Positions 29,601 to 64,000 of a stretch of 64,000 nt of DNA are shown here, one piece after another. A program made the position numbers and the translations under genes. This DNA comes from Sediminibacterium sp. Gen4 (GTDB lineage: Bacteria > Bacteroidota > Bacteroidia > Chitinophagales > Chitinophagaceae). Numbering within the stretch: position 1 is the stretch's first letter; each line of letters opens with the position of its first letter. The notes beneath the pieces are model-generated. The model did not search any database and was not told the DNA's origin. It was given only the letters and a program-made list of their open reading frames with translations. The stretch spans positions 49,616 to 113,615 of the forward strand of contig JACBFI010000008.1 in NCBI GenBank assembly GCA_013391385.1, read 5' to 3'.

Positions 29601-32600
29601 CGTAAAATCAAAACCCACATTAACAAGTGTAACCATTGCCTCTAATAATGCAACAAACACAAGGCGAGCTACTACAGGTAATATTGTAACCTTGAACTTT
29701 ACTGCTAGTGAAGCTATCAATACCCCTGTTGTAAAACTTACGACGCTGCAGCGTACGGTGACAGCCACCAATGCATCAGGTGATAAGCTGAACTGGCAAG
29801 TTGCCTATACAACAGTAGTAGGTGACCCTGAAGATTCTGTGACGATTTCCATAGTGCCAACAAGTGTTTTTGGTATTGCCGGAGATGAAGTAAGAACTAC
29901 AACAAACGGTACTTATGTACTTTTTGATAAAACAAAACCTACACTGAGTAGTGTGGCTATTGTATCGAACAATCCACTAAATACAGCACGAGCCACAACA
30001 GGCAATTTGGTTACGCTTAGTTTTACAACGAGTGAACGTTTATCACAAAAGCCGAATATTTCAATAGCCGGACAAGTGATTCCGGCAGGTAGTGTAACCA
30101 ATATATCCGGTAATAACTGGAAAGGTGAATATACTTTAGCGGGTACCGAGACTGAAGATACGATCAGATTTTATGTATCCTATGTAGACTCAGCGGGTAT
30201 TAGAGGAGATACGGTAAGAATTACCAACAATAACAGTAGGGTGATCTATGATAAAACAAAACCTTTACTAACTAGTGTAGCAATTGTATCCAACAATACT
30301 ACAAATACCGCAAAAGCTACTACGGGCGATACTGTTACGGTTAATTTTACGACGAATGAAGCATTATCACAAAAGCCGAGTGTTTCTATAGCCGGACAAG
30401 TGATAGCTGCTTCCAGTGTAACCAATATATCCGGTAATAATTGGAAGGGTGTATATAAGTTGGTGGGTACGGAAGCAGAAGATACAGTTCGGTTCTTCAT
30501 ATCGTTTATAGATTCTGTAGGCATTAAGGGAGATACGGTACGAGCTACCACCAACAATAGCCGTGTAATTTTTGATAAAACAAAACCTACACTGAGTAGT
30601 GTAGCGATTATATCCAATAATGTTGTCAATACCGCAAGAGCTACCACCGGCGATTCTATTACAGTGAGTTTTACATCAAGTGAAGCGTTGTCACGAAAAC
30701 CAAGTGTTTCCATCGCTGGACAACTGATCGCTGATTCCTGTGTAACCAAAATATCCGGTAATAACTGGAAAGGCGTTTATAAATTGGTCGGAACCGAAAC
30801 AGAAGATACGGTTCGATTCTTTATATCATATGTAGACTCTGCGGGCATCAAAGGAGATACGGTACGAATCACCAACAACAATAGTCGTGTAATTTTTGAT
30901 AAAACCAAACCTACACTGAGTAGTGTAGCGATTATATCCAATAATGCTGCCAACACTGCAAGAGCGATAACGGGCGATTCTGTTACCTTGAGTTTTACAG
31001 CGAGTGAATTGTTGTCACAAAAGCCGAGTGTTTCCATTGCCGGACAAGTGATACCGGCATCCAGTGTAACCAATGTATCCGGCAATAACTGGAAGGGTGT
31101 ATATAGGTTTGCGGGTACTGAACCAGAAGATACGGTTCGGTTCTACGTATCGTATATCGACTCTTCAGGCAATAGAGGGGATACGGTACGGACTACCAAT
31201 AATAGTAGTATTGTAATTTTTGATAAAACAGCTCCTGCTTTAACTACAGTTGGCATTCTATCTAATAATATCAACAGTAACTCTCATGCTGCGATAGGTG
31301 ATACCATCACGCTGAATTTTACTGCTGCTGAGACCATCGTATCACCTAGTGTGCTCATCGCTGGACAGGCAGTATCATCAACGAATGTATCCGGTAATAA
31401 CTGGAAGGCTACTTACAAGACACAAAGTGGGGATACAGAAGGGACTGTCAGCTTCCAGATTGCCTATAAAGATGTGATTGGTAATGTTGATACGGTGAGA
31501 AATACCACTACCAATAATACGAGAGTTAGATTTGATAAAACAGCTCCAACATTAACTTCAGTAACCATTGCATCGAATGCGTCTGATCCGGCAATTGCCA
31601 TCATTAATAGTGTGGTTACGCTCAGTTTTGTTGCCAATGAAGGTGTGTTAACACCCACAGCTACCATCGCAGGTAATACCGTAACACCTACATTGGTATC
31701 AGGCAATAGTTGGACTGCTTCTTATACTATTAAAGCAACCGATACGGAAGGACAAATACCGTTTACTATTAACTATAAAGATTCGGCAGGTATTGCAGGC
31801 GTAGCGGTAACTACTACTACTAATAACAGTAAAGTTGTATTAGATAAATCAGCACTTGTGCTGAGTATGGTAAGTATTGCATCGAATAATACTACCGACA
31901 CAAGTCATGCTACTACCGGTGATATTATTACCATTAAATTCAAAGCCAGCAGGGAGATCAATATTCCAACTGTTTTACTGGCAGGCAATTCAGTTACAGC
32001 TACCAATACATCAGGTGATAAGATCAACTGGCAAGCGAGCTATACATCAAGGGTAACAGATACCGAAGGAGTAACTTCCATCAAAATTGATTTTACGGAT
32101 CTGGCAGGAAATGTGGGATTAACTGCTAACGGAACATTGGATAATACGAGGGTCATATTTGATAAAACACCACCTACCTTAAGCAGTATTGGAATCCTTT
32201 CTTCCAATGCGAATACAGCAAAGGCAAAAGTGGGCGATACGATCATCCTCAATATTGTATCCGGTGAAGGAATTATGGCACCTGTTGTAACGATCGCGGG
32301 ATCAGGTGCAAGTGTAACTTATATATCAGGTAATAACTGGAGAGCAAGTTATATTATACAATCCACCGTTGCAGAAGGAAATATTCCGTTCAGTATTGCT
32401 TATAAAGATTCTGCGGGGCTATCCGGTACAGCAGTAACAGCTACTACCAACAATAGTGCAGTTGTATTGGATAAAACGATACCCATATTAAACAGTGTAT
32501 CCATCATATCAAATAATGCGAATACAGTAAGAGCAAAAGTTGGTGATACGGTTACGCTTAGTTTTACTGCTAATGAAGGAATACTGACGCCTGTTGTAAC

Positions 32601-61559: not shown

Positions 61560-61757
61560 ATGCTTATTATTGATTCAAAAGATTGCGAAAACATCGACAA
61601 GGCACTCAAGAAGTACAAGAAGAAATTCGAAAAGAGTAAGGTATTGTTACAATTGAGAGAGCGTCAGGCATTCACTAAGCCGTCTGTTAGACGTCGTGGT
61701 GAGGTGTTGAAAGCCATCTATAAGCAGCAGATCGCAAGCGGCAAGATCGAGGGATAA
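61560..61757 (+). CDS. rpsU: 30S ribosomal protein bS21
   Basis: A 65-residue basic ribosomal protein: MLIIDSKDCENIDKALKKYK, then LLQLRERQAFTKPSVRRRGE and LKAIYKQQIASGKIEG. The frame is open upstream to 61413, but that stretch is repeat and promoter DNA, and the Shine-Dalgarno sequence fixes ATG 61560. bS21 sits near the 3' end of 16S rRNA. It heads the conserved order rpsU-xerC-hpf. A terminator hairpin follows and its T-run touches the next gene's start codon. Confidence 0.95.
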   Translation: MLIIDSKDCENIDKALKKYKKKFEKSKVLLQLRERQAFTKPSVRRRGEVLKAIYKQQIASGKIEG

Positions 61758-61820: not shown

Positions 61821-62708
61821 ATGTCTCAACCTGTCTATCCAGCCATACAGCCCTTTTTAGATCATCTGCGCTTTGAGAAGCGTTATTCCCAACATACCCT
61901 TATTTCTTATCAAACCGATCTCGAACAATTCTTTGCATATCTATCCAGTCAATTTGATAGTCCATCTATTGCAGAGATCAGCCCCATGTTTATTCGTAGT
62001 TGGTTAGCGGAAATGAAAGAGGAGGGTATGGAAAGCCGAAGTCTGAATCGAAAGATATCCGCGTTAAAGTCTTTTTTCAAATACCAGTTAAAAAATGGCG
62101 TCATAGCGCAATCGCCCATGACTACCATTGTCTCTCCCAAGTTGAATAAGCGTTTGCCTGTATTTGTTGAAGAAAAGGATATCAAGACCTTATTTGATCA
62201 TGTAGCATTTTCCGATGATTGGAAGGGTAGAACCGAAAAATTGGTCATGCAGTTGTTTTATAGTACCGGTATGCGTTTGAGTGAATTAATCGGTTTAAAA
62301 GAATCACAGTTGGATGCATCTTTATCGCAGATCAAAGTTTTGGGAAAGGGTAATAAAGAAAGGATCATTCCGATATCTCAGGAACTGGTACAAGCATTGC
62401 AGACATATATCAAAGAGAAACCTATGGCTAGTCCTAAGTTGTTTCAAACAGAAAAGGGTAAGCCTTTACAACCCAGACAAGTCTATGCTTTTGTTAAACA
62501 GTATTTAGCCGCTGTTACTACCATACAGAAAAAAAGTCCGCATATTCTCCGACACAGTTTTGCCACGCACCTGATGAACAATGGTGCAGATTTAAATGCG
62601 GTAAAAGAGTTATTAGGTCATAGTAGTCTTGCTGCCACGCAGGTATACACACACAATACCATTGAAAAGCTGAAAGAAGTGTTTAAGAAGGCGCACCCGA
62701 AGGCTTGA
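61821..62708 (+). CDS. xerC: Tyrosine recombinase XerC/XerD family
   Basis: A 295-residue site-specific recombinase, probably one of the two that resolve chromosome dimers at dif. The N-terminal SAM-like domain (about 5-95) shows HLRFEKRYSQHTLISYQTDL. The catalytic residues are R in YSTGMRLSELIGL near 152, K in VLGKGNKERIIPI, H-x-x-R in HILRHSFATHLMNNG near 240, H in LLGHSSLAATQ and the nucleophile Y in VYTHNTIEKL near 275. The ATG abuts the rpsU terminator T-run. The position between rpsU and hpf is conserved in Bacteroidota, which argues for a housekeeping Xer, not an integrase. Confidence 0.93.
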   Translation: MSQPVYPAIQPFLDHLRFEKRYSQHTLISYQTDLEQFFAYLSSQFDSPSIAEISPMFIRSWLAEMKEEGMESRSLNRKISALKSFFKYQLKNGVIAQSPMTTIVSPKLNKRLPVFVEEKDIKTLFDHVAFSDDWKGRTEKLVMQLFYSTGMRLSELIGLKESQLDASLSQIKVLGKGNKERIIPISQELVQALQTYIKEKPMASPKLFQTEKGKPLQPRQVYAFVKQYLAAVTTIQKKSPHILRHSFATHLMNNGADLNAVKELLGHSSLAATQVYTHNTIEKLKEVFKKAHPKA

Positions 62709-63060
62709 GGGGGGCCATGGTCCATAGTCCATGGGCTATAGCTTATGGTTCTGGCGAATAGTGAGTATTGAGTAGCATCTGACTGGTTCCATCCGTTTCC
62801 TCTATACACTATCTACCATGGACTATCGACTATGGTCTATAGCTTATGGTTCATGGCGAATAGTGAGTAGTGAGTAGCATCTGACTGATCCCATCCGTTT
62901 CCCTATACACTATCTACCATGGACTATGGAATATGGTCTATGACCTATACGCCATTAGCTATAAACCATTCGCATCCCTCCACAAATCACTTCCATCCTC
63001 ATACCTAAAACCTTGAATTCCTGTCAACTGTCAGCTATCAACTGTTAACTTTCATTTTCC
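62709..63060. repeat. Heptad-phased repeat region with a 101-bp tandem duplication
   Basis: The region between xerC and hpf is filled with 7-bp steps such as CCATAGT CCATGGG CTATAGC TTATGGT and AGTGAGT AGTGAGT. A unit of about 101 bp starting at 62736 (CTATAGCTTATGGTT) is repeated from 62837 with few changes. The last part (63018-63050) repeats CTGTCAACTGTCAGCTATCA, the word seen at 52269. No gene is present. Confidence 0.8.
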
Positions 63061-63204: not shown

Positions 63205-63504
63205 ATGAACGTTAACATTCAAACAGTGCACTTTGATGCAGATGACAAATTGGTAGAGTATGTTTCACGTAAGCTCCAAAAGTTGAACACCTTTCATGAT
63301 CGAATTCTGAAAGCAGATGTGTTTTTGAAACTGGACAATGTGGTACATACGATCAAAGACAAAATCGTGGAGATAAGAGTGCATGTTCCGAGGCATGATT
63401 TTTTTGTGAAAGCCTCCTCAAAGTCATTCGAAGAGTCATTTGACTCAGCCATGGAATCCATTGTATCACAGATCAAACGAAAAAAAGAAAAATTAGCAGC
63501 CTAA
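63205..63504 (+). CDS. hpf: Ribosome hibernation promoting factor (HPF/RaiA, short form)
   Basis: A 99-residue ribosome-binding protein that blocks the A and P sites and promotes hibernation when growth slows. The sequence MNVNIQTVHFDADDKLVEYV, followed by SRKLQKLNTFHDRILKADVF, then VEIRVHVPRHDFFVKASSKS and SFDSAMESIVSQIKRKKEK, shows the beta-alpha-beta-beta-beta-alpha order of the S30AE domain with its basic ends. There is no C-terminal dimerisation domain, so this is the short form. It lies third in rpsU-xerC-hpf and is followed by a strong terminator. Confidence 0.93.
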   Translation: MNVNIQTVHFDADDKLVEYVSRKLQKLNTFHDRILKADVFLKLDNVVHTIKDKIVEIRVHVPRHDFFVKASSKSFEESFDSAMESIVSQIKRKKEKLAA

Positions 63505-63542: not shown

Positions 63543-63560
63543 TGGCAGGCTACGAGCTGC

Positions 63561-63614
63561 GAGCCACGAGCTATGAGCTTTGTAAGAGATAAAAAAGCTC
63601 ATAGCTCGTGGCTC
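63561..63614. repeat. Heptad inverted repeat (GAGCTAC/GAGCTAT word), perfect 20-bp arms
   Basis: Arm 63561-63580 and arm 63595-63614 are exact complements. The flanks extend the pattern in 7-bp steps (GAGCTGC GAGCCAC GAGCTAT GAGCTTT). It lies between the hpf terminator and the promoter of the tRNA-like array. Confidence 0.85.
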
Positions 63615-63672
63615 ATAGCTCACAGCTTTCTTCCCGTGTTAATAACTACCCGAAAAAATTCCAATCAAAATT

Positions 63673-63701
63673 TTGCTGAATAAAGTTTTCCATTACCTTT
63701 G
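63673..63701 (+). promoter_or_regulatory. Promoter upstream of the tRNA-like array
   Basis: TTG within TTTTG (63671-63675), an 18-bp spacer and TACCTTTG (63694-63701) match both halves of the Bacteroidota consensus. The first tRNA-like unit begins about 100 bp downstream. Confidence 0.65.
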
Positions 63702-63801
63702 CCATCCCAAAAAAGGGTAGTTCTTTGTTTTTTCTATACCAAAAAGCTGGTCAGAGAATTGGATTTTTTGCCGCTCGAAATGACCGCTTTTAAAATAAAA
63801 A

Positions 63802-64000
63802 GCCAATTAACTCAGTTGGTAGAGCATCCCGATGCAAATCGGGAAGGTCGCGGACCTTTAAACGAACTACTCTGAAAGATTAGGTAAAACAAGCCGAAGT
63901 AGCTCAGCTGGTAGAGCATCCCGATGCAAATCGGGAAGGTCGCGGACCTTTAAACGAACTACTCTGAAAGATTAGGTAAAACAAGCCGAAGTAGCTCAGC
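63802..64000 (+). repeat. Tandem array of about 92-bp tRNA-like units lacking a T-arm (continues beyond the window)
   Basis: Units start at 63802, 63893 and 63985 (91- and 92-bp steps). Unit 1 opens GCCAATTAACTCAGTTGGTA, units 2 and 3 open GCCGAAGTAGCTCAGCTGGT; both contain a normal tRNA D-arm (CTCAG...GGTAGAGC). All then share TCCCGA-TGCAAA-TCGGGA, a 6-bp stem in the anticodon-arm position, and AAGGTC-GCG-GACCTT, a second hairpin, where a tRNA would have variable loop and T-arm. No TTCGA T-loop and no 3' acceptor complement of GCCGAAG is present. Unit 2 and the visible start of unit 3 match over their overlap. A functional tRNA of canonical form cannot be drawn from these units. Confidence 0.7.

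Follow-up and report, generated by a model that had tools for sequence, protein, structure and literature searches.

The window, a stretch of 64,000 nucleotides, ends in a tandem array that is probably the upstream, ORF-less form of a Bacteroidota-wide tRNA-gene element driven by a nuclease and copied by recombination. Judged by their sequence, the array units resemble incomplete copies of a threonine tRNA gene, and a short palindrome interrupts each of them. Interrupted copies of this type lie beside tRNA genes, a placement that is well supported, and ORFs of ~80 amino acids with a GIY-YIG domain are found between evenly spaced rows of such palindromes.

An array of interrupted tRNA copies at a contig end

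The array fills positions 63802-64000 with one unit of 91 bp, one of 92 bp and the first bases of another, and Tandem Repeats Finder reports a period of 92 bp with 2.2 copies at 63800-64000. Because the last base of the window is also that of contig C57 (113,615 bases, in a source assembly of 59 contigs and 3.52 Mb), neither the copy number of the array nor its continuation can be read in the window. On the same (+) strand, the array is preceded by an rpsU-like gene for ribosomal protein S21 (61560..61757; Pfam PF01165, E 2.9e-14), by a tyrosine recombinase gene that we take to be xerC-like (61821..62708; PF00589, E 2.6e-38), and by an hpf/raiA-like gene for a ribosome hibernation factor (63205..63504; PF02482, E 1e-18), the latter two serving as synteny markers. 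The promoter-like boxes TTTG and TACCTTTG follow at 63672..63701 (+) and presumably represent the Bacteroidota promoter consensus; TACCTTTG is also present 5′ of tRNA-Thr(TGT) in the nine relatives compared. A leader stretch (63735..63801, +) exceeds the usual spacer of the relatives: TACCTTTG lies 100 nt from unit 1, compared to 31-43 nt from tRNA-Thr(TGT) in eight relatives and 115 nt in one (L165).

Each unit opens with the acceptor 5′ strand and D-arm. The palindrome TCCCGATGCAAATCGGGA then takes the position of the anticodon arm, only a stub is left of the variable loop and T-stem, and a spacer completes the unit. The outermost unit 1 (63802..63892, +) has a degenerate tRNA 5′ end and a degenerate D-arm, AACTCAGTTGGTAGAGC, with the palindrome replacing the anticodon arm at 63827..63844 and a second short inverted repeat, AAGGTC-GCG-GACCTT, at 63844..63858. 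Unit 2 (63893..63984, +) begins with a match to tRNA-Thr(TGT) positions 1-26, followed by the palindrome at 63919..63936 and a spacer. The final 16 bases (63985..64000, +) open either a third unit or the intact tRNA-Thr(TGT), which the contig end truncates. Units 1 and 2 are identical at 72 of 72 positions over a stretch of their common body and at 86 of 92 in the 92-bp register, where the mismatches fall in the 5′ end. The first bases of unit 2, GCCGAAGTAGCTCAG, are those of tRNA-Thr(TGT) in eight of nine same-genus relatives; in the ninth, this tRNA starts GCCGGAGTAGCTCAG. Within the window, the pattern TCCCGAN{2,12}TCGGGA occurs only at the two array sites, and it is absent from 100 shuffles.

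A first-pass annotation of this DNA had described tandem tRNA-like units at the expected tRNA-tuf locus, and both Tandem Repeats Finder and reading of the sequence bear this out. The length of 92 bp and the perfect D-arm that it gave apply to unit 2 (GCTC..GAGC), whereas unit 1 is 91 bp long and its D-arm is degenerate. Both hairpins that it listed, the 6-nt-loop hairpin TCCCGA-TGCAAA-TCGGGA and AAGGTC-GCG-GACCTT, are present in each unit, and its observation that the T-arm and acceptor 3′ half are missing agrees with the programs. ARAGORN finds no tRNA in the array, and the score with the Rfam tRNA model is 16 bits, below the cut-off of 29; no full cloverleaf that includes the acceptor stem and T-arm is found there. 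The units are not tRNAs.

Other repeats are present in the window. A 101-bp repeat (2.1 copies, 62731-62941) is located between the xerC-like and hpf-like genes, a long inverted repeat, gagctgcgagcc...ggctcatagctc (63544-63626), lies 3′ of the hpf-like gene with all Rfam matches below cut-off, and a 324-bp tandem repeat spans 4.1 copies at 29916-31230.

The tRNA-Thr locus in relatives and in the source genome

Nine same-genus relatives that we fetched carry an ordinary tRNA-Thr(TGT)-Tyr-Gly-Thr(GGT) cluster at the locus of the array, matching the earlier expectation that intact tRNAs lie past it. None of the nine has units before tRNA-Thr(TGT), although these relatives were chosen via a match to the tRNA D-arm, which weakens a clean comparison with 'empty' sites. 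A search of the nine loci for partial tRNA copies returned only one 11-base chance match. At locus L167 (genome G003), the sequence after tRNA-Thr(GGT) (2334-2390) has the palindrome TCCGGTGAAAGCCGGGA, the motif AGGTCG and a CGGCTC end, and looks like a decayed downstream copy that is too diverged for the copy search.

The locus is complete in L254, from the Bacteroidetes MAG record JAPLEH010000028.1. Here, xerC-like and hpf-like frames precede a protease-like frame and the promoter-like box also seen in the window; two ~95-bp units with TCCCGATTGATAAATCGGGA come next, and then a cluster of intact tRNA-Thr(TGT), Tyr, Gly and Thr(GGT) genes. After Thr(GGT) there are two downstream units with the 3′ end of this tRNA, the second of which stops at the end of the locus. 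The outermost upstream unit of L254 has a degenerate 5′ end, as does unit 1 of the window. The first-pass annotation had noticed the odd 5′ end of unit 1 and proposed a fusion of two tRNAs; the difference is real, but the comparison with L254 points to a degenerate outermost copy rather than a fusion.

In the source genome, the tRNA-Tyr (in part), tRNA-Gly, tRNA-Thr(GGT) and tuf genes that had been proposed for a search beyond the array are found on contig C47, along with one similar unit directly before tRNA-Thr(GGT). The tRNA-Thr(TGT) gene is not among the assembled tRNAs of this genome, as judged by ARAGORN over every stretch with an above-cut-off Rfam tRNA match, and probably sits in the assembly gap past contig C57. 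The first ~1.6 kb of C47 (1-1640) reaches a G+C content of 67%, compared to about 37-50% past base 1500. Since this G+C-rich sequence, which to us has the look of a cyanobacterium, is joined inside tRNA-Tyr, the start of C47 is probably chimeric with foreign DNA.

These features bear on whether the array is an assembly artefact. The end of the window is a contig end, and the expected neighbour contig C47 begins with unlike, G+C-rich sequence to about base 1600. However, the same architecture recurs in L254, where the locus can be followed beyond it, and other assemblies contain arrays like it, namely at L374 and inside G114, a genome of 7.3 Mb in a single contig. These cases rule out misassembly as the source of the architecture and leave an artefact at the contig end an extremely improbable reading. 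What stands of the suggestion of a misassembled contig end is that the contig ends in a repeat. The end of C57, the start of C27, the end of C34, the start of C18 and the end of C56 all fall in tRNA-copy arrays, and such arrays therefore probably fragment the source assembly.

Palindrome-interrupted tRNA copies across the Bacteroidota

Hairpins of the form TCCCGA-N3..12-TCGGGA occur 27 times in the source genome, compared to three times for the reversed control, and 15 of the 27 were manually read as residing in a tRNA-like context. Among 79 same-family genomes including the source, 31 contain GCATCCCGAN{2,10}TCGGGA, several with evenly spaced rows. A scan of named genomes with GAGCATCCCGAN{2,9}TCGGGA matched at least 118 stretches. 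Among the 80 matches listed, which provide a natural control, a nearby tRNA (same strand, up to 700 bp away) or GIY-YIG ORF (up to 350 bp away) is present at 30 of 37 Bacteroidota loci, two of 41 loci from other phyla (L231 and L246), and one of two unnamed loci, with the phylum assigned from record titles; the placement of the window in the Bacteroidota is itself inferred from the named loci. The seven listed Bacteroidota loci with neither feature include two (L224 and L270) at locus edges in a tRNA-like context. A further 38 scan loci (L283-L320) lie outside this classification by phylum and are included in the polarity, all-set palindrome, fold and GIY-YIG-to-tRNA distance counts.

The copies have a strong polarity. 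Copies of tRNA 3′ ends are located downstream of tRNA genes in 68 cases versus upstream in three, and copies of 5′ ends upstream in 51 cases versus downstream in six; part of these loci were picked by palindrome, and the main counts (68 and 51) are de-duplicated while the converse counts (3 and 6) are not. Breaks are clustered as well. Among the 68 3′ copies, 34 end 31 or 33 nt from the tRNA 3′ end, approximately at the end of the anticodon arm, and 18 end at 17-19 nt, in the T-loop, whereas 43 of 51 5′ copies break 25-30 nt from the 5′ end.

At loci chosen by protein (L142-L150 and L173-L202), 29 of 34 copies have a perfect palindrome, 6 bp or longer, directly adjoining the break (23 of 25 3′ copies and six of nine 5′ copies); the frequency at random positions is 119 of 1554 (7.7%). 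Over all locus sets, 109 of 122 distinct copies have a palindrome at the break, a count that includes L203-L320, which were fetched by palindrome pattern and are biased for breaks and palindromes. Figures free of this bias are the 29 of 34, the 30-locus phylum sample and the genus counts of small versus large GIY-YIG genes described below. The palindrome sequences vary: TCCCGA arms are commonest, with TCCGCC, TCCCCAC, TCCCGC, TGCGCC and others also represented.

Two arrangements are evident, with units of about 70-370 bp. The downstream form (L103, L112, L057 and L204) consists of a tRNA, a terminator, a GIY-YIG ORF, a segment with a degenerate D-arm, a palindrome and an exact tRNA 3′ end, and a terminator, and is tandemly repeated in some loci. 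At L112 and L121, the ORF stops within the D-arm, and the palindrome and tRNA 3′ half follow. The upstream form comprises the 5′ flank, an exact tRNA 5′ end and a palindrome, then an ORF or none, and then the intact tRNA; the ORF is present at L145, L150 and L194 and absent from the window, L245, L254 and L374. By reading, no integrase is encoded within the units of the printed loci, which either contain GIY-YIG ORFs or are too short for one.

Individual loci have further peculiarities. In tandem tRNA-Asp units of L142, two palindromes look like mutual reverse complements (loops GTAT and ATAC), as if inverted. L102 (G110:C19:530443-531076) has a row of 123-bp units at a tRNA-Met gene, six by pattern and seven in the read-out; in these units the palindrome is located in the T-loop, and a terminator-like hairpin is also present. 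At L103, L108 and L118, ARAGORN labels some interrupted copies tRNA-Stop, tRNA-Lys or tRNA-???.

The location of the units between promoter-like boxes and a tRNA gene raises the prospect that they form structured RNAs that act on the tRNA-tuf transcript as decoys, insulators or regulators. The window units indeed fold better than shuffled sequences, with z-scores of -3.74 for unit 1 and -2.27 for unit 2 (-1.89 in a second run). Once the palindrome is removed, however, 31 upstream units have a mean z of only -0.75 (s.e. 0.19), D-arm hairpin included. Moreover, no Rfam family matches above cut-off, and all nine same-genus loci fetched lack units before tRNA-Thr(TGT). A functional RNA is thus a quite improbable explanation, and the earlier proposal of a novel structured RNA array is weak at best. 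Of the four readings offered in that annotation, a tRNA-derived repeat family is the only one that fits. It recognized the derivation from tRNA and missed the GIY-YIG genes, the palindrome as the common part, and the rule that 5′ copies lie upstream and 3′ copies downstream.

Small GIY-YIG nuclease genes beside tRNAs

The source genome encodes 11 GIY-YIG domains, nine in small proteins and two in large ones (608 and 402 aa). All nine small genes are located at tRNA genes, seven within 80 bp and two as second tandem units, compared to neither of the two large genes. Likewise, a same-strand tRNA lies within 250 bp at nine of 12 small GIY-YIG loci of the genus by script (a tenth, L327, by reading), compared to a tRNA within 250 bp at none of 17 large loci. 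Small GIY-YIG frames occur in about 16 of 61 genus genomes, from a list read by eye. In a phylum sample, one GIY-YIG protein used as query matched 120 of 198 genomes, and the 30 loci fetched have a same-strand tRNA within 200 bp in 27 cases, at 218 bp in one and not at all in two. When loci fetched for their tRNA context are included, 75 of 80 GIY-YIG domains have a tRNA no more than 1 kb away, in no case on the opposite strand.

The relationships among these proteins also track the tRNA isotype. Over 59 loci, the GIY-YIG tree requires 24 isotype changes, compared to 41.5 ± 1.65 when labels are shuffled (0 of 500 shuffles); this test leaves out further ORFs per locus and five loci whose nearest tRNA is ambiguous (L256, L269, L277, L298 and L318), and the Lys label of L103 and L262 was assigned by hand. 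The tree is poorly resolved, with 83 columns and 10 of 72 inner branches starred, and the clustering by isotype could partly come from vertical descent.

Pfam PF01541 is matched by nine of nine proteins examined (E <= 0.001), the first with 57.4 bits against a cut-off of 22.6, and all nine small proteins of the source genome exceed this cut-off. Residues Y6, Y17, R28 and E64 are invariant in nine aligned proteins. On the basis of the domain and the conserved Y, R and E, the associated nuclease is a member of the GIY-YIG superfamily and is likely a DNA-cutting enzyme. Its nearest solved relatives, by sequence comparison with the PDB, are UPF0213 (1zg2, E 4.8e-14; 1ywl, 1.5e-12) and SLX1 (7cq2, 4.5e-7) rather than site-specific homing enzymes, and Pfam finds no separate DNA-binding domain in nine of the proteins. 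The group I intron endonuclease family TIGR01453 is matched weakly by five of nine members (best E 2.1e-5), with the first member scoring 16.7 bits, below the cut-off of 56.05, and PHROG homing endonucleases also match the small proteins weakly. No GIY-YIG gene is seen at the window's own locus or in the 8-kb locus of L254, and the link of the window array to the nuclease therefore rests on shared anatomy and on the other loci of the source genome.

Another origin would be passive pseudogenes that arise by slippage and are broken by a common dispersed, REP-like palindrome, with the GIY-YIG genes as unrelated hitch-hikers. About half of the TCCCGA hairpins of the source genome are outside tRNA contexts and many arrays lack an ORF, as this reading would predict. 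It does not account for the 5′/3′ polarity, the clustered breaks or the association with the nuclease across the phylum sample, and we consider it unlikely.

A proposed nuclease-driven tRNA-gene element

In the element that we propose, one host tRNA gene stays intact and is flanked by incomplete copies of itself, with 5′-end copies and their 5′ flank placed upstream, and 3′-end copies and their terminator downstream. Each copy is broken at the anticodon arm, the T-loop or, less often, the D-loop, usually with a short palindrome filling the break, and full units also encode the ~80-aa GIY-YIG nuclease. This enzyme may break DNA at the tRNA gene or at an interrupted copy, after which homologous recombination between tRNA halves would insert the element beside its cognate tRNA gene and, by the same repair, multiply units in tandem. 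The partial copy would act as a homology arm and leave an intact tRNA, so that the host would survive. Because the order of the tRNA halves matches the product expected when a broken tRNA gene recombines with matching halves, and because phage SegB provides a parallel, we take the arrays to be products of nuclease breakage and repair; cutting, homing, amplification and mobility are each inferred from this pattern.

The palindrome may have one of two roles in this process: it is either cut itself or shields the copy from cutting. In the first case, a UPF0213/SLX1-like nuclease would cut the extruded palindrome (a cruciform or hairpin) in the copy, repair from adjacent tRNA halves would expand the array, and the intact tRNA would never be cut. 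Palindromes of several different sequences at 29 of 34 breaks of the protein-chosen loci, and at 109 of 122 distinct copies overall, are consistent with recognition of structure, as are the best PDB matches (UPF0213 1zg2, 4.8e-14; SLX1 7cq2, 4.5e-7) and the lack of a separate DNA-binding domain in nine proteins by Pfam. Recognition of structure alone leaves entry at an empty tRNA gene unexplained, TCCCGA arms recur beyond what structure alone would need, and repair off the intact tRNA could erase the palindrome. We regard cutting of the palindrome as plausible while holding it with somewhat less than even confidence.

In the second case, the enzyme would home to an unoccupied tRNA gene by cutting its conserved anticodon arm or T-loop, and the palindrome would merely destroy the cut site in the copy. 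Breaks mainly in two conserved tRNA loops, the isotype link of the GIY-YIG relationships, the weak matches to homing endonuclease families and a patchy presence across the genus all fit such homing. Occupied and unoccupied alleles do exist among relatives, with all nine same-genus Thr(TGT) loci fetched lacking units and small GIY-YIG frames in ~16 of 61 genus genomes. However, any mutation would suffice to destroy a cut site, so the palindrome in 29 of 34 copies needs another reason. In addition, the intact tRNA would stay cuttable: in the sequences compared, it looks normal at occupied loci, with no general resistance change found, and a homing enzyme that cuts the tRNA would therefore keep cutting its host. 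We hold homing to the tRNA gene with slightly less confidence than cutting of the palindrome, which the frequency of palindromes favours.

Two T-loop variants were noted in this context. The T-loop of tRNA-Thr(GGT) is TCCGA rather than TTCGA or TTCAA in two of 18 sequences (L004, corresponding to C47 2047-2119, and L254), both from genomes with Thr arrays, which could reflect target-site resistance or shared lineage. The TTTGA variant of tRNA-Arg(ACG) at occupied loci is also present at unoccupied loci (30 of 30 Arg(ACG) rows listed, 26 of them without copies).

In its most specific form, our proposal is a minimal mobile element made of a UPF0213/SLX1-like GIY-YIG nuclease and a palindrome-interrupted half of a host tRNA gene. 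It would spread between cognate tRNAs and amplify tandemly across the Bacteroidota, with ORF-less derivatives such as the window array mobilised in trans. We advance this version tentatively. Should it hold, a minimal selfish element that remodels the flanks of tRNA genes would be present throughout a major bacterial phylum. Such an element could account for many small GIY-YIG genes of unknown role, for tRNA-like pseudogenes that annotation may list as odd or real tRNAs (ARAGORN 'Stop' and '???'), and for contig breaks at tRNA loci. As a tractable system, it would also help to examine how a host survives a nuclease that is tied to one of its essential, conserved genes.

Comparison with known systems

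A link between tRNA genes and GIY-YIG enzymes is already known in phages. Brok-Volchanskaya (2008) reportedly dealt with SegB-type enzymes as free-standing GIY-YIG homing endonucleases of T-even phages. According to a paper on phage T6 (PMC13096335), SegB is a GIY-YIG enzyme encoded beside tRNA genes, its breaks lead to tandem repeats of a tRNA segment via recombination, and the tRNA gene at its 5′ end shares microhomology with the 3′ end of segB. That paper treats how a tRNA-linked nuclease avoids killing its own host as an open question (PMC13096335). The elements described here resemble this system in the GIY-YIG gene adjoining tRNA genes and in the tandem amplification of a tRNA segment by recombination, and the ORFs of L112 and L121 that end in a D-arm recall the T6 microhomology (PMC13096335). 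They differ in their residence on bacterial chromosomes, palindrome-interrupted tRNA halves, 5′/3′ polarity and ORF-less arrays. Their proteins are also only ~80 aa in length, whereas the SegB family has an extra C-terminal part. Neither the L112 protein nor the window array had a match among 50,697 phage records.

The part of a 2006 survey of GIY-YIG proteins available to us does not mention tRNA adjacency of small members (PMC1564403). We found no description of these elements in the open-licence literature searched, in which chromosomal, palindrome-interrupted tRNA halves with 5′/3′ polarity and ORF-less arrays appear to be undescribed.

Three other types of element share some of these features. 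The atp6 element of Allomyces is a fungal mitochondrial endonuclease insertion that duplicates the end of its host gene. It likewise combines a nuclease gene with a duplicate of the host-gene end, through which the host gene stays complete, but it resides in a mitochondrial protein gene and lacks tandem tRNA arrays. Tyrosine-integrase elements integrate at tRNA att sites and have in common with our units the tRNA targets, breaks at the anticodon loop and T-loop, and a displaced tRNA 3′ end, whereas our units are about 70-370 bp long, bear palindromes in the copies and, in those read, encode no integrase. Finally, REP palindromes, which pair with RAYT transposases, are similarly short and dispersed, whereas those described here interrupt tRNA copies and occur next to GIY-YIG genes.
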